Of a stretch of DNA of 25,179 bases, positions 1 to 22,556 are shown piece by piece. A program made the translations under genes and the position numbers. The DNA is from a virus. Every line of letters begins with the position of its first letter. Position 1 is the first letter of the stretch. The notes under the pieces are model-generated. The model was given only the letters and a program-made list of their open reading frames with translations, had not been told where the DNA came from and searched no databases. The stretch spans positions 1 through 25,179 of IMG/VR virus record IMGVR_UViG_3300028388_004798; one strand, written 5' to 3'.

Positions 1-118
1 TATAAGGTTGTATAGAAAGAAGATAGGATGGTGTAGGGAAGATAGAAGGTAAGAGATAGGGTTGTGTGTGTCCCTTCCGGAATTTTTTCTATATAGAGCC
101 ATCCGGCCATACAAAAGC

Positions 119-168
119 ACTTACACTTTGTAAGCCGACCCTATAGGCAGCCGGGAGAGAGTGTAAGT
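119..168. repeat. 9-bp inverted repeat forming a stem-loop
   Basis: ACTTACACT at 119-127 is perfectly complementary to AGTGTAAGT at 160-168. The 32-base loop is itself GC-rich and contains a CCTATAGG palindrome. It could be an RNA stem-loop in the leader of the gene at 280 or a protein-binding site in DNA. There is no T-run after the right arm, so it is not an intrinsic terminator, and there is no T-loop sequence, so it is not a tRNA. Confidence 0.45.
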
Positions 169-171
169 AAG

Positions 172-195
172 ATAGGGGGTATTGCTTATACATTG
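172..195 (+). promoter_or_regulatory. G-rich leader motif, copy 1
   Basis: ATAGGGGGTAT at 172-182, followed by a pyrimidine/AT stretch ending in CATT, is nearly repeated at 1220-1244. This copy lies about 100 bases before the gene at 280, and the second lies about 40 bases before the gene at 1267. Runs of five G are rare in this AT-rich sequence, so the shared 11-mer and its similar flank suggest a common control element, perhaps for early or middle genes. The function is inferred only from position. Confidence 0.35.
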
Positions 196-279
196 TAAGG
201 AAATATATGTGGATTTAGTTGGTAGTATGGGAGATAGTTACTATATTAAGGTAAGTTAAAAGATAAAAAGATAAAGGTT

Positions 280-594
280 ATGACTTACAACGACAAGATT
301 AAAGCATCAAACATCATCATCAATGGTATTAATGGACTTAAAGATGGAGATAAGTTAAGAGTATCTTATGGTGTAGATTCAGATGATATGCCTATTAACT
401 ACTATATTACATGTCATACATACGGTACTGGTACCTCTTATAGTATATATAGAGATGATGTATGGGCTATGACTGGTATGAATATATCTTCTGTAGGTAA
501 GACCTCTATGGTGGCATATACATCCTTCCACGGGCATCCGTCCGGCAGTCTTCGGTCATATTGCTCTCATGGTGATATAACACTGACAGTATAG
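280..594 (+). CDS. Hypothetical protein, 104 residues
   Basis: I do not recognise this small protein. It has no signal peptide or transmembrane helix. Residues 1-35 are mixed charged and hydrophobic (IIINGINGLKDGDKLRV), and the rest is rich in Tyr, Ser, Thr and Gly with three cysteines or fewer, suggesting a compact beta-rich fold. The start is supported by a leader ending in ATAAAGGTT directly before ATG. The genes at 1738 and 2412 share this AAAGGTT leader, and the gene at 3227 has AAAGAGTT. It lies alone on the plus strand, before a minus-strand cluster of tiny genes, so it is probably an accessory gene. It could be an early host-takeover protein, but nothing in the sequence shows this. 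Confidence 0.6.
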   Translation: MTYNDKIKASNIIINGINGLKDGDKLRVSYGVDSDDMPINYYITCHTYGTGTSYSIYRDDVWAMTGMNISSVGKTSMVAYTSFHGHPSGSLRSYCSHGDITLTV

Positions 595-691
595 TTCCCT
601 AACGGGTACGTCGTCGGTGTGGCTGCGCCTGTCTAGAGAACATATATCTGATAGATTTCGGTATATAGTAATATATATTTATATATTAGTA
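595..691. other. Intergenic stretch, no gene seen
   Basis: A short GC-richer patch at about 604-635 follows the stop of the gene at 280. It gives way to a very AT-rich stretch (about 660-690) downstream of the convergent minus-strand genes. I found no tRNA, no clear hairpin followed by a T-run, and no open frame with protein-like composition. Confidence 0.4.
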
Positions 692-769
692 CTACTTCTT
701 ACACTTCCACACAATATAAATTCCATACAAGCATAATGCAATAATAATGTAACCCGGTATATTAATCAT
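692..769 (-). CDS. Putative 25-residue single-helix membrane peptide
   Basis: A minus-strand ATG at 769 opens a frame of 25 codons ending in TAG. The peptide starts MINIPGYIIIALCLYGIY and ends with the basic tail WKCKK. That is a single hydrophobic helix (about residues 5-21) with a positively charged C-terminus, the usual form of a phage micro-membrane protein. It lies 12 bases after the stop of the neighbouring minus-strand ORF, as expected for an operon. Such peptides can be antiholins, superinfection blockers or regulators of host membrane enzymes, but nothing here chooses between them. The short length makes chance possible. The hydrophobic core with basic end and the matching neighbour are the supporting evidence. 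Confidence 0.35.
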   Translation of the reverse strand: MINIPGYIIIALCLYGIYIVWKCKK

Positions 770-781
770 AGTGTATTCTTA

Positions 782-910
782 TCATAAAAATCCATAGACG
801 TAGATTGCTACCGTAATATACCCAAATAAGAAGAGAGCAGTGAATACGTTAATTTTTCTCTTACCTATCCTTACATCGTCATAGAAGATAAAATCTCTTA
901 TCTTGGACAA
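782..910 (-). CDS. Putative 42-residue membrane protein (TTG start)
   Basis: This minus-strand frame has no ATG. The best start is TTG at 910, giving a protein beginning MSKIRDFIFYDDVRIGKRK. The N-terminal half is amphipathic and basic. Residues 21-42 (starting NVFTALFLFGYI) form one transmembrane helix running to the C-terminus. The frame stays open upstream and overlaps the end of the gene at 945-1127 in another frame, so the true start could be earlier. The charge pattern (basic cytoplasmic end, then a helix) and the lack of low-complexity codons make coding plausible. It sits in the middle of a three-gene minus-strand cluster. Confidence 0.4.
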   Translation of the reverse strand: MSKIRDFIFYDDVRIGKRKINVFTALFLFGYITVAIYVYGFL

Positions 911-944
911 TATGTTAATGAACGTTTTTATATAATAGATCCCT

Positions 945-1127
945 CTATTTAGAGGTACGTCGTTTTTTATCTAATTTCTTTTTTACCTTATCGAAGGCGT
1001 CATCGTAGATATCTCTGGAAGGCTTATTGGTCTTTTGTTTAATCTTTGATGCTTTCTTGAGCACTTCCTTTCGGATACCCAGCCTCTCGGCCTCCCATAG
1101 TAAATCTTCTAAATTATCGTGAGCCAC
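945..1127 (-). CDS. Small basic hypothetical protein, 60 residues (GTG start)
   Basis: This GTG-start gene lies on the minus strand, opposite to every other well-supported gene in the window. The N-terminal part is acidic (MAHDNLEDLLWEAERLGIR). The rest is strongly lysine-rich and predicted helical, ending in KKKLDKKRRTSK. This is the pattern of a small helical phage protein, possibly nucleic-acid binding through its basic tail. A sigma70-like promoter (TTGATT, 17-base spacer, TATATT) lies just upstream on the same strand, with a predicted leader of about 20 bases. Two very small membrane-peptide frames follow. I do not recognise a family. Confidence 0.6.
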   Translation of the reverse strand: MAHDNLEDLLWEAERLGIRKEVLKKASKIKQKTNKPSRDIYDDAFDKVKKKLDKKRRTSK

Positions 1128-1152
1128 AACTCGTAATTTTTATTATACATTT

Positions 1153-1181
1153 AATATAAGAACTTTTTGTTAAAAAATCAA
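1153..1181 (-). promoter_or_regulatory. Sigma70-like promoter for the minus-strand cluster
   Basis: Read on the minus strand, TTGATT (1181-1176) is separated by 17 bases from TATATT (1158-1153), about 25 bases before the GTG at 1127. Spacing and both hexamers fit a primary-sigma promoter. A Bacteroidetes host sigma prefers a different pattern, and AT-rich DNA gives such matches by chance, so this is a moderate call. Confidence 0.4.
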
Positions 1182-1186
1182 TAAAA

Positions 1187-1205
1187 CCCGGGGAAATTTT
1201 CCGGG
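1187..1205. terminator. GC-rich hairpin between divergent transcription units
   Basis: CCCGG at 1187-1191 pairs with CCGGG at 1201-1205, extendable by two G-U pairs. It is flanked by AAAA on the left and AAAAATTTTT on the right. Read on the minus strand, the arm is followed by TTTTATTGATTTTTT, a fair terminator tail, although the minus-strand promoter lies just beyond it. It may act as an insulator between the divergent genes at 1127 and 1267. Confidence 0.4.
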
Positions 1206-1219
1206 AAAAATTTTTGTAT

Positions 1220-1246
1220 ATAGGGGGTATCGTTCATATCATTAAG
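1220..1246 (+). promoter_or_regulatory. G-rich leader motif, copy 2
   Basis: This is the second copy of ATAGGGGGTAT (1220-1230), followed by a stretch similar to that after copy 1 (pyrimidine-rich, ATATCATT). It lies 37 bases before the ATG at 1267, at a distance suited to a promoter or operator element for that gene. See the copy at 172. Confidence 0.35.
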
Positions 1247-1266
1247 ATAAGAACTATTTATGTATA

Positions 1267-1701
1267 ATGCAACCTATAGACCCACATACGTTATTCTCAA
1301 TCTTTGAACAAGGAGATGAGGCGGTGTACAGAGAGAACGGAGTAGAAGACGTTCTTAATAATCCGTATGTACTTATAGGAATGGTTATAAAAGGATTAGA
1401 GAATTACCAGTTGATGGATAGTATGTATATGAGATCTTACCCTAAAGAATACCAAGCAGTAAGAGATAATGTGAAACTAAAGTATTATAATAATCTCTAC
1501 CAATATCTCTTACGTATCGACAGTACTTCATTTGAATCAATCTATTCAATAGGAGAGGCATACGATGTTCAACAGGTACTTTTCGGTTTGGACACTATGT
1601 TATATTATTTTGAGACATTAGAAATGTATGAAAAATGTGCTATAATAAAACAGTACATGGATTTAGTTAGAGCTTCTATGGGAGAAAAGTTGGTAAATTG
1701 A
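1267..1701 (+). CDS. Hypothetical phage protein, 144 residues
   Basis: This is a soluble, acidic, largely helical protein with no signal peptide or membrane segment. It is rich in Tyr, Leu, Met and Glu. Near the C-terminus, YFETLEMYEKCAIIKQYMDL resembles the helix often seen at the end of small T4-type phage proteins with repeated helical hairpins, but I cannot name a family. CTATTTAT lies 5 bases before the ATG, similar to elements before the genes at 4929 and 7244. No Shine-Dalgarno sequence is visible. The gene starts the plus-strand run that leads through the accessory genes to the late sigma factor. Confidence 0.65.
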   Translation: MQPIDPHTLFSIFEQGDEAVYRENGVEDVLNNPYVLIGMVIKGLENYQLMDSMYMRSYPKEYQAVRDNVKLKYYNNLYQYLLRIDSTSFESIYSIGEAYDVQQVLFGLDTMLYYFETLEMYEKCAIIKQYMDLVRASMGEKLVN

Positions 1702-3226: not shown

Positions 3227-3481
3227 ATGTCATTATCCGCCGAAAAGATCCAAAAAAATTACGAAAAACATCTTAAAATTATAGAAACTTACATTACCGA
3301 CCGTAAGGAAGCATGTATTTCTATGATTAAACACATGGAGGATACATATGTTATGGCTCCTGCTAGTTCTAAAACATGGTACCATAGTGCATTTCCTGGC
3401 GGATACGTGGATCATGTTAATAGAGTGGTTGAGTATGCGGTGAAACAAATGAGGTTATATCAAGAAATGCCTCTTCCATGA
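3227..3481 (+). CDS. HD-domain phosphohydrolase, N-terminal part (frame broken)
   Basis: This is the first half of a phage HD-superfamily metal-dependent phosphohydrolase. TWYHSAFPGGYVDHVNRVVE (about residues 50-69) carries the conserved histidines (YHSAF and DH) that precede the HD motif in this family. The frame ends at TGA (3479-3481), which overlaps the bases encoding the His-Asp pair in the next frame. Downstream, frame +1 reads CLFHDLGKMGDGD from 3468, the metal-binding HD motif. Related proteins that I recall carry roughly 14-17 more residues between the LYQEM helix and the HD motif, so a deletion of 3n+2 bases is likelier than a single-base slip. Such enzymes hydrolyse nucleotides or phosphoesters; the substrate here is unknown. 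If the break is real, this fragment is inactive. Confidence 0.7.
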   Translation: MSLSAEKIQKNYEKHLKIIETYITDRKEACISMIKHMEDTYVMAPASSKTWYHSAFPGGYVDHVNRVVEYAVKQMRLYQEMPLP

Positions 3482-3491
3482 TTTAGGTAAG

Positions 3492-3917
3492 ATGGGTGAT
3501 GGTGATCGTCCAAATTACATACCTCAAACTGATAAATGGCGTCAAGATAAATTATCTGAAATGTATACCTATAATCCTGAGCTTGATTTTATGCTAATCC
3601 CAGATCGTTCACTGTTTATTCTCCAGAAATTTGGCATTCCAGTTAGTCAAAAAGAGTGGCTAGGCATCAGACTACATGATGGTGTATTTGATAAAGCTAA
3701 TGAAGCATACTTTTTCAGTAATATGGAGTCATCTAGGCAGAAAACTAATATAGTCTCAGTAATACATACAGCAGACTTCCTAGCTTCCAAGGTAGAATAC
3801 GATATGTGGAAGGAAAATGGCGGTTCTACTCAACCGAAAGCCCAGAAAACACAAGCTTCTACAGGAAAACGGGTAAACTCCTCAGAAGGACTTACGAATA
3901 TGTTAAAAAATCTATAA
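3492..3917 (+). CDS. HD-domain phosphohydrolase, C-terminal part (frame broken)
   Basis: This is the second half of the HD phosphohydrolase begun at 3227. The frame is open from 3453 and encodes the HD motif (HDLGK, 3477-3491) before its first ATG at 3492, so an independent product starting at that ATG would lack the catalytic His-Asp. The segment continues with PNYIPQTDKWRQDKLSEMY, a basic/tyrosine patch conserved in the phage family. It then has the helical region LFILQKFGIPVSQKEWLGIR and a late conserved SVIHTADFLASKVEYD, whose HxAD supplies a further metal or substrate ligand. The last 25 residues are a Ser/Thr/Lys-rich tail. It is followed three bases later by the membrane protein gene at 3921. 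Treat the two parts as one gene, disrupted in the phage or in the assembly. Confidence 0.65.
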   Translation: MGDGDRPNYIPQTDKWRQDKLSEMYTYNPELDFMLIPDRSLFILQKFGIPVSQKEWLGIRLHDGVFDKANEAYFFSNMESSRQKTNIVSVIHTADFLASKVEYDMWKENGGSTQPKAQKTQASTGKRVNSSEGLTNMLKNL

Positions 3918-3920
3918 AAA

Positions 3921-4229
3921 ATGGACATAAATTACATAGTTACCGGGGTTTTAGTTGCTATCTGTACAGTTTTACTATATATTGTACGTAATCTTATTAT
4001 TAAAAACGAAAAATACGAAGATGTTGTGCGTGACCAGACACAGTATCTTCAAAATATATCAAACGCAATATACGAAGGTCAAAAGCACCTGCAAAATCTT
4101 GACGAGAAAGGGGTCTTCCAGTCAGACGATGAGGTCGGTTATTTTTTCGAACAACTTAAATACGTTCAAGACGAGCTAAACCGATACATGCTCCCAGAAA
4201 ATTATGGCAAGGAAGAGAAGCAAAGCTAA
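3921..4229 (+). CDS. Small membrane-anchored coiled-coil protein, 102 residues
   Basis: Residues 5-27 form one strong transmembrane helix (IVTGVLVAICTVLLYIV), followed by a long charged amphipathic helix (about 30-95) with heptad-like spacing (NLIIKNEKYEDVVRDQTQYL). The result is a short N-terminal anchor with a coiled-coil on one face of the membrane. The gene overlaps the late sigma factor gene by 26 bases, so the two are translationally linked. I recall similar small anchored proteins next to the sigma gene in related phages but cannot name a function. Possibilities include a role in lysis timing or in membrane-linked replication or assembly. The overlap and the helix composition make the gene itself secure. 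Confidence 0.7.
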   Translation: MDINYIVTGVLVAICTVLLYIVRNLIIKNEKYEDVVRDQTQYLQNISNAIYEGQKHLQNLDEKGVFQSDDEVGYFFEQLKYVQDELNRYMLPENYGKEEKQS

Positions 4230-4908
4230 TTACTTTACAAAAGAGACAGAAGACTATATAGTAAAATACAATAATTCGGTTGATCAGGAATATAGAAACC
4301 AGATCTTTACCGAGCATATTTATTTACCGTTTTATAAGCTAGCAGAGAACATTATACATACTTTTAAGTTTTACTACACCGATGTAGACCGTATTGAGGA
4401 TTTAAAACATGAGATAGTATCTGTATTACTAGAAGAGAAGATTGATAAGTTTGATCCAACAAATGGAGCTAAGGCTTATTCTTATTTTGGGACTATTGTC
4501 AAGCGCTGGCTTATAAACTACAATAACAAGAACTATAAGAAACTTAAACAGATAGGTCAATTCTCTGAAATGGAAGAGACTTATGAACCTGACCTAGACG
4601 AAGACTCTGTCAGCAAAAAGACTTTATCTAGAATTTTAGACGAGTGGGTAGAGGAAGTCTATGAAGACTTAGATGAATTATTTTTTAAAGACTCAGAAAA
4701 GCAGATAGCCGACGCTGTTCTTATAGTTTTTAAAACTCGTAATGATTTAGAAATCTTCAAGAAAAAAGCTCTTTACATTTACATACGGGAAATGACCGAT
4801 TGTGATACACCAGCCCTTACTAAAGTTATTAACATATTGAAGGATAGTTGGAATAAAAAATATCAAGCATTATACGATTTAGGGTTACTAACAAATTCTT
4901 ACGTCTAA
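4204..4908 (+). CDS. 55: Late-transcription sigma factor, T4 gp55-like
   Basis: A phage-encoded divergent sigma factor that directs host RNA polymerase to late promoters. The N-terminus (MARKRSKANYFTKETEDYI) is the usual opening of gp55-like proteins in this phage group. LPFYKLAENIIHTFKFYYTD (about 39-58) and KFDPTNGAKAYSYFGTIVKR (about 81-100) match sigma region 2, which binds the polymerase clamp helices and melts the -10 box. A basic NYKKLKQIG segment follows. At 234 residues it is longer than T4 gp55 (185), with an acidic insertion at about 120-135 and an extra C-terminal helical part. In T4, gp55 works with coactivator gp33 and the sliding clamp. Its position directly before the structural operon fits control of those genes. 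The start overlaps the previous gene. Confidence 0.85.
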   Translation: MARKRSKANYFTKETEDYIVKYNNSVDQEYRNQIFTEHIYLPFYKLAENIIHTFKFYYTDVDRIEDLKHEIVSVLLEEKIDKFDPTNGAKAYSYFGTIVKRWLINYNNKNYKKLKQIGQFSEMEETYEPDLDEDSVSKKTLSRILDEWVEEVYEDLDELFFKDSEKQIADAVLIVFKTRNDLEIFKKKALYIYIREMTDCDTPALTKVINILKDSWNKKYQALYDLGLLTNSYV

Positions 4909-22126: not shown

Positions 22127-22136
22127 AAAATAATTG

Positions 22137-22556
22137 ATGTGGTTTTATAAAGGTAAAAAGATAGAAAGTATCGATGAGATGCCCGATCAGACGTACGGGT
22201 TTATATATGAAGTACTACATTTGCCTACCGGCCGTAAGTACATTGGGAAAAAAGTTCTTATATTTAATAGAACGTTACCTCCTTTAAAAGGGACTAAAAG
22301 AAAGAGAAAAGTTCAAAAAGAATCTGATTGGAAAACCTATTATGGATCTCATCAGGAAATTAAAGGGCTAATTAAAGAAGGTAAACAGGAAGAATTTAGT
22401 AGAGAGATATTACAGTTTGTACCTACAAAAAAGCTACTGACTTACTTTGAATGTAAGTATCTATTTATAAAAGAGGTGTTAGAGCATAATGAATATATTA
22501 ACGATAACATCTTAGCTAAATTCTACAGAAAAGATTTTAATTATGATAAAGCTTAA
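22137..22556 (+). CDS. SegE-type GIY-YIG nuclease-like protein
   Basis: A 139-residue protein of the SegE-like GIY-YIG family, a group of free-standing phage endonucleases. GFIY then TGRKYIGKK (about residues 21-39 from this ATG) give the GIY and YIG strands. SDWKTYYGSHQEIKGL is the conserved basic patch with the family YYGS motif. The helix LTYFECKYLFIKEVL carries the glutamate expected to bind the metal ion, and YINDNILAKFYRKDF is the family end. An in-frame TTG lies one codon upstream, but the ATG at 22137 is the better start. It sits immediately after the adhesin and overlaps the next gene by 14 bases. SegE-like proteins act in homing or DNA processing. Activity here is not shown. Confidence 0.75.
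   Translation: MWFYKGKKIESIDEMPDQTYGFIYEVLHLPTGRKYIGKKVLIFNRTLPPLKGTKRKRKVQKESDWKTYYGSHQEIKGLIKEGKQEEFSREILQFVPTKKLLTYFECKYLFIKEVLEHNEYINDNILAKFYRKDFNYDKA

Follow-up and report, generated by a model that had tools for sequence, protein, structure and literature searches.

Phage T4 produces the superinfection exclusion proteins Imm and Sp, which are small membrane proteins, outside its late programme, and phage holin/antiholin pairs are short proteins with one or two helices and charged ends. Here we describe three small minus-strand genes, two of them predicted to encode single-helix membrane peptides, in a 25,179-base virus record (the window, that is, the whole stretch of DNA analysed). A phage accessory operon of microproteins is a known kind of locus; the protein families and the phased DNA element of this one were not found in the libraries searched, and a narrow literature look-up found no publication on the cassette.

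That the cassette is an expressed, conserved operon seems to us almost certain from its conservation, and we regard it as probably a non-late accessory operon. For the explanation as a whole, in which a minus-strand accessory (takeover or moron) operon of a T4-like phage produces peptides that enter the host inner membrane, we lean towards acceptance.

The phage is assigned as a T4-like relative of Flavobacterium phage immuto. Two plus-strand genes of the window match baseplate wedge proteins, and the nearest isolates in the phage collection are Flavobacterium phages immuto, of about 160 kb and with annotated T4-like capsid genes. Since immuto is the nearest isolate relative, the host is probably a marine Bacteroidetes.

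We note several further features of the window. A phosphohydrolase gene (3227-3917) lies in two frames (84 and 141 aa) and is a single intact 244-aa frame in the related contig L002; the split is either a genuine disruption or a sequencing error. A G+C-rich patch amid the A+T-rich genome (about 2460-2500) encodes LRAFRAAA ahead of a lipobox-like stretch, and this LRAFRAAA stretch recurs in lipoprotein-like genes of many relatives. For a 140-aa protein (22134-22556), matches were obtained to phrog_447, which carries the label NAD synthetase (E 1.3e-34), and to families of homing endonucleases (E 1.2e-12 and 1.8e-6). Positions 60-180, upstream of a 104-aa gene (TTTTTCTATATAGAGCC...), resemble L013 and L016 by the frames yielded and are possibly a conserved non-coding stretch.

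A helical protein and its exchangeable partners

The three minus-strand frames of the original prediction were found exactly where they had been placed, with matching sizes: a 60-aa first gene with a GTG start (945..1127), a 42-aa gene with a TTG start (782..910) and a 25-aa last gene with an ATG start (692..769). Their orientation is indeed opposed to that of the window's other apparent genes; the longer minus-strand ORFs listed overlap plus-strand ORFs. The 42-aa and 25-aa frames each contain one hydrophobic stretch (best 19-residue Kyte-Doolittle mean 1.99 in both), and the basic flanks claimed for them are present, before the helix in the 42-aa protein and at the C-terminus of the 25-aa peptide. 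The operon-like arrangement also drew support from the relatives, in which the slot is conserved, spacings are short and the listed cassettes have a single promoter region. Gene order in these cassettes is fixed, the soluble protein coming first and membrane peptides following; L015 and L027, near-identical here, carry an extra 91-aa gene ahead of the soluble-protein gene.

The cassette is bounded by a conserved single-copy non-coding element (about 520-690) and, on the right border of the slot, by a divergent and conserved 144-aa gene (1267..1701, plus strand), whose immuto homologue has 42% identity. A viral-contig scan with the 144-aa gene found seven more loci. The model of its protein is all-helical (pLDDT 77), with no PDB match better than E 0.6.

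The first gene had been described as merely a small basic gene, and a widespread conserved family was thereby missed. The basic C-terminal tail is common to the two closest relatives, but it is absent from 19 of the 26 aligned family members, which are 49-53 aa long. Positions E, A, G, Y and A are invariant in this alignment, and AlphaFold2 predicts three helices for the 60-aa protein (pLDDT 82). Scanning viral contigs with the 60-aa protein yielded a single close relative, 67% identical and with the surrounding genes preserved, and a search with a 12-member alignment found 78 helical-family loci. The codon-level conservation that the original prediction expected of its frames is evident in this gene, which, with dN/dS of 0.11 and 0.12 against two relatives at a synonymous difference of about 0.7, is judged to be under purifying selection; six other pairs in the family give 0.14-0.30. 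Conservation of the frames in related phages is therefore borne out for the 60-aa gene, is weak at codon level for the 42-aa gene and does not extend to the 25-aa frame, for which no homologue was found.

The helical family (about 50 aa), as defined here, matches no curated family of the libraries searched, nor did searches of isolate phage genomes recover it. Against PHROGs, no scanned member had a match at E 0.01 or better, and the 26 members touched seven families at E 0.03-0.07, one member each; in Pfam and NCBIfam, none of the helical members scanned scored above cut-off. With three helical-family queries, tblastn gave nothing better than E 6 across 50,697 isolate phage records and nothing in immuto, and the 19 pattern matches in bacterial genomes scanned with A4 include no relative. 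Foldseek with the three-helix model returned no match at E 0.001 or better in PDB and BFVD, the best BFVD match being an uncharacterised uncultured-phage protein of 55 aa (TM 0.74/0.81, E 0.09), and a profile search of PDB sequences with the family reached E 0.032 at best. VIA-align, applied to 6 chains only, gave its best Z of 4.7 with a mitochondrial ribosomal chain and a Z of 3.5 with a 55-residue chain of a cyanobacterial RNA polymerase holoenzyme, both too weak for use.

The 78 loci differ in context: the 144-aa gene is near in 30, a gp62-like gene lies just upstream in 25, and 23 have other contexts. The helical-family profile behind the core check among these loci and the element counts, both given below, derives from A3, and many of the same records are part of A3; the 25 gp62-like calls were made by comparison with the L077 protein. 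The latter is itself assigned as gp62 through phrog_225 at E 2e-14; PF16790 also matches it at E 1.6e-5, the 25.8 bits falling slightly short of the cut-off of 27. In L077, a gp44-like clamp loader gene (phrog_168) lies upstream of the gp62-like gene with two genes between, and at 3567-4377 the helical gene overlaps the end of the gp62-like gene (ATGA) and precedes a phrog_1811-like 75-aa gene. In 12 of 14 distinct gp62-type loci, the next gene is a 63-76-aa soluble gene at -4; it is a membrane gene in none.

Counterparts of the 42-aa gene occupy the same slot in L002/L017 (47 aa) and L030 (36 aa). Codon-level support for this gene is weak because it shares 31% identity with the L017 counterpart at a dN/dS of 0.58; membrane genes are mostly faster-evolving, the six pairs giving 0.10, 0.24, 0.43, 0.58, 0.64 and 0.66. 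Support for the 25-aa gene is positional. Among 32 distinct records (duplicate segments dropped), 23 have a minus-strand membrane frame of at least 22 aa whose stop falls at +95..+120 relative to the core of the element, against 0.11 expected in shuffled DNA, and the window's 25-aa frame stops at +109, the commonest value listed (7 of 23). Short last genes (25, 28, 29, 32, 36, 37 and 42 aa) are also present among the relatives, and a size of 25 aa is therefore not out of line.

The original prediction took the second gene to be simply a micro-membrane gene and overlooked that this partner is exchangeable, being either a membrane or a zinc-ribbon-like protein. Downstream partners, classed by eye from a listing, comprise a membrane gene in 15, a zinc-ribbon-like gene in 5 and a larger gene in 1 of 24 distinct loci of the 144-aa type (3 are cut off), and a membrane gene comes next in 7 of 19 other distinct loci. 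From these classes, pairing with a membrane gene is taken to recur outside the slot beside the 144-aa gene and not to be universal. We also observe that a paired-cysteine GHNPxPxN protein of 49-56 aa (zinc-ribbon-like) replaces the membrane gene after the helical gene in L071 and L072 and at 3527-3685 in L045. Where the sequence allowed, the relatives' slot was seen to hold minus-strand genes, either helical plus small membrane genes or others, the latter oxygenase-like, methyltransferase-like and glycosyltransferase-like (named by eye from sequence).

None of the cassette proteins scanned scored above curated cut-offs in Pfam or NCBIfam, and none had a match in PADLOC. The window's own frames gave nothing below E 0.2 in PHROGs; for proteins of 25-42 aa, family models have little power. 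A two-helix, 67-aa cassette protein of L010 weakly matches phrog_16874, 'membrane protein; moron, auxiliary metabolic gene and host takeover' (E 0.0031), and one 67-aa membrane protein gave only E 2-6 matches by tblastn against isolate phages. A Trp-x10-Trp spacing occurs in 10 of 34 membrane partners (shuffle mean 2.1, max 7, 500 shuffles); the partners are related and hand-chosen, and it was left unused.

Promoter-like sites and a phased non-coding element

Two minus-strand promoter-like sites lie ahead of the first gene. The proximal site P1 (1151..1181) reads TTG-N20-TATATTAA with a AAAAAGTTCT block that is visible upstream of the first gene in relatives, and the distal site P2 (1242..1272) reads TTG-N20-TATCTTAA and overlaps the start of the 144-aa gene. 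Scored on both strands of the whole window with a matrix made from relatives, P1 (30.1) and P2 (28.5) rank first and second, and the third match reaches only 14.9. The matrix comprises 19 distinct sites from 26 relatives' upstream regions, with the window excluded; the sites were chosen by presence of TAT[ACT]TTA, one of them in shifted register. Because they are related by descent, the result shows sequence constraint, not independent origin. A promoter-like sequence had been predicted at 1153-1181; on the minus strand it reads TTGATT-17-TATATT. Conservation in relatives upholds this site, whereas its sigma70-like match has no weight, being one of 23 in 4 kb with 19.3 expected.

The promoter form is TTG-N20-TATnTTAA, which resembles, and is not identical to, the flavobacterial -7 box, TAnnTTTG (PMC9723704). 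The same layout stands before the 104-aa gene (219-249) and, divergently, before the 144-aa gene (1214..1244, plus strand; TTG-N20-TATCATTA, a pattern match only). Between P2 and P1 lies a G+C-rich hairpin (1187..1205) that is terminator-like on the plus strand; a scan gave 3 such sites against 2.0 expected, and by eye it is not strictly conserved in relatives' upstream regions. In immuto, 32 of the 40 best matrix matches fall within the initial 78.1 kb, slightly less than half of the genome, a part with annotated genes for replication and with series of small hypothetical genes; 8 fall in the other half. By eye, an annotated start follows closely after most of the ten best, several matches are inside genes, and the match ranked fourth, at 74487 on the minus strand, occupies the homologous slot. 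The promoter class suggests that expression of the operon is non-late.

With the cassette viewed alone, the adjoining conserved non-coding element had been missed. It spans about 517-690 in the window, and its core, CTGACAGTATAGTTCCCTAA (583..602, plus strand), has an exact match in 35 viral-contig stretches. Allowing up to 3 mismatches, the core CTGACAGTATWGTTCCCTAA is present in one copy per record in 11 of 11 records up to 113 kb. Our set of 34 element records consists of the window and 33 of the 35 exact-core stretches; L019 and L020 were left out, their contigs being already present as L009 and L007, near-identical to L008/L016. This set was selected by the exact core, so that core conservation within it is circular. 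A check is provided by the 30 loci with the 144-aa gene, which were collected with the helical protein as query: the core is present at two or fewer mismatches in 23 (14 exact, mostly on the same contigs, and 9 with 1 or 2 mismatches, which are new), and the sequence of the remaining 7 stops no more than about 450 bases from where the first gene starts. The core occurs in 0 of the 48 other helical-family loci, and blastn with the 20-base core region against isolate phages gave no convincing match (one at E 9). The first gene is present in 30 of the 34 element records and absent from 4.

The 3' end of the element is an A+T-rich hairpin with an 8-bp stem and a 4-nt loop (669..688), which lies just past the last stop and is the probable terminator of the minus-strand operon. 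A perfect stem of at least 7 pairs occurs at +60..+125 of the core in 31 of 34 records, against 4.0 expected in shuffled sequence, whereas a control stretch (+250 to +315) has such a stem in 0 of 34. In several relatives the element has micro-membrane genes on either side, one strand each, since a plus-strand membrane protein of about 66 aa is encoded at L006 5052-5252, at L008 367-567 and left of the element in L010.

At its other end, the element contains a degenerate array with an 11-bp phase (528..593; unit nTGmnrkmAnn), which overlaps the end of the 104-aa plus-strand frame. Lag-11 identity upstream of the core is 0.44 versus 0.25 over 28 sequences, with further peaks at 22 and 33; the corresponding z of 18.9 is an average over these sequences, and their relatedness inflates it. 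Taken singly, the array of the window does not stand out (0.53, with 0.55 reached elsewhere and only that value higher), and that of immuto ranks first by a very small margin (0.56 versus 0.55). The unit is roughly palindromic, with weak palindromic covariation within it (positions 4/7 z 2.3, others lower). We favour a protein-bound DNA array over a structured RNA, because the phase is one helical turn and no nested covariation is seen. Structured RNA is not claimed: folding z-scores on both strands are -1.05, 0.12, -1.26 and 0.64, consensus folding energy is near zero without covariation scoring, and mutual information shows no nested helix beyond the A+T hairpin and short stems. Rfam searches of nine sources gave none at gathering scores, with one chance-level match for window 1-1300 (E 0.84).

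Immuto offers a direct comparison over 74-82 kb. Like the window, it has on the right, with gene order unchanged, the 144-aa homologue, a T5orf172 gene and the genes for phosphohydrolase and baseplate proteins, and its slot has a recognisable 11-bp array with visible units, the A+T hairpin and a minus-strand promoter. Unlike the window, it yielded no cassette genes, and its 20-base core has diverged. We observe that the strong minus-strand promoter-like site at 74487-74517 (L126 24487-24517) is kept with no cassette reading frame found after it, and possibly yields a short non-coding transcript. As to an origin at the immuto array, GC skew has no sign change there and gives no support.

Possible roles of the operon

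In the explanation towards which we lean, promoter-like sites of the conserved class TTG-N20-TATnTTAA would drive three small genes, the first encoding the conserved three-helix protein and the others two single-helix membrane peptides, before the late genes are expressed, and transcription would end at the A+T hairpin of the conserved single-copy element. The peptides would insert in the host inner membrane, where the positive-inside rule predicts the N-terminus of the 42-aa protein and the C-terminus of the 25-aa peptide to be inside. There the most likely effect would be a change in the membrane that keeps out the DNA of other phages, or interference with some membrane process of the host. 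The soluble protein may act apart from the peptides, in the cytosol; replication or transcription machinery is its probable target, since its gene follows gp62 in other phages. The membrane partner is not fixed and 4 of 34 records lack the first gene; therefore, the soluble and membrane proteins would not need to cooperate. The cassette appears as an accessory operon should, with its own promoter-like sites, on the opposite strand, inserted between conserved genes at a place where relatives carry differing genes. Dispensability is compatible with the lack of the first gene in those 4 records and, by tblastn, in immuto.

That these frames are chance open frames over a non-coding or antisense transcript is very improbable. 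The 25-aa frame has no homologue found, and immuto keeps its minus promoter with no homologous frame after it, such that the transcript itself could matter there; against this reading stand the first-gene dN/dS of 0.11-0.12 and the recurrent position of the last membrane stop (23 of 32 records). The original prediction offered blocking of superinfection, antiholin action and disturbance of host membrane enzymes as functions, a plausible set that the peptides may or may not fulfil. Among roles for the peptides, superinfection exclusion ranks first and is offered tentatively: hydropathy marks them as small inner-membrane proteins, as would be expected of Imm-like exclusion, and no sequence feature points to exclusion in particular. 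Ranked next, and unlikely in our view, is that the peptides depolarise or poison the inner membrane like small hydrophobic toxins, shutting off host growth, with the first gene as regulator or antidote. Single-helix peptides of 25-42 aa with few charges suit such a role, as does the rapid divergence of several membrane members, but several cassettes have no single-helix peptide, no antisense RNA or antitoxin was identified (Rfam giving none at gathering scores), and the cassette proteins scanned matched nothing above curated cut-offs in Pfam/NCBIfam and nothing in PADLOC. Less probable still is a lysis-timing module, in which the one- or two-helix proteins would be holin- or antiholin-like and the soluble protein a cytosolic modulator. 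Size and topology fit, and several partners have two helices and a charged C-terminus, such as the 67-aa protein of L010. However, PHROGs named no lysis protein among 28 plus-strand proteins of the window (most are without a named family), the promoter class stands mainly before non-structural genes, and in some cassettes a zinc-ribbon-like protein takes the partner's place. In immuto, moreover, chitinase and holin are annotated at 43.7-44.8 kb and a lysozyme at 146 kb, far from the homologous slot at about 74 kb. The antiholin role that the original prediction had allowed is thus disfavoured.

A different emphasis would make the three-helix protein the functional core, as an accessory of clamp loader, polymerase or RNA polymerase, and the following genes unrelated cargo. 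We hold this to be possible, about as much so as exclusion. Of the genes in the slot, the helical gene is the most constant (30 of 34 records); it directly follows a gp62-like gene in 25 of 78 loci and shares an ATGA overlap with it in the replication cluster of L077. On the other side, solved structures gave no match, structural alignments are weak (best Z 4.7), and tblastn with three members gave no match in immuto, a genome with annotated replication genes. A link of the soluble protein to the replication or transcription machinery is nonetheless the best lead for this protein, with the same reserve, and the roles proposed for the peptides and the soluble protein are not mutually exclusive. 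More doubtful is a joint reading of family and element. Here, the helical family would be coupled to the clamp loader in one phage group and to micro-membrane proteins in another, acting perhaps as a replisome- or RNA-polymerase-binding factor that is tethered near the membrane in the second group. The array would be a single-copy set of degenerate TGMnnKCA sites in 11-bp phase, a tandem operator-like or origin-like structure to which a phage protein binds cooperatively on one helix face; the element would also end the operon and lie next to a slot for gene exchange.

In sum, frames that most gene callers would drop (25 and 42 aa, GTG and TTG starts, opposite strand) appear to form a conserved operon in many uncultured phages. 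The helical family defined here gains a genomic link to the clamp loader, the conserved phased DNA element could be a regulatory or replication site, and operon, family and element are testable in a Flavobacterium phage system.

Compared with known systems, the cassette shares with uncultured T4-like clamp-loader clusters such as L077 the same helical family, which there overlaps the end of a gp62-like gene; the clusters differ in that the helical gene is on the replication-gene strand and is followed by a 75-aa soluble gene rather than a membrane gene. Its peptides resemble holin/antiholin pairs in their one or two helices, short length and charged ends, and differ in having no recognised lysis gene beside them and in occupying a slot other than that of the annotated lysis genes of immuto. 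With respect to Imm and Sp of T4, the cassette differs in having no family match found, in the size of its membrane proteins (25-42 aa, one helix each) and in its three-gene layout headed by a soluble protein. Like Imm and Sp, it would supply small phage membrane proteins outside the late programme, the timing being judged here from the promoter class.
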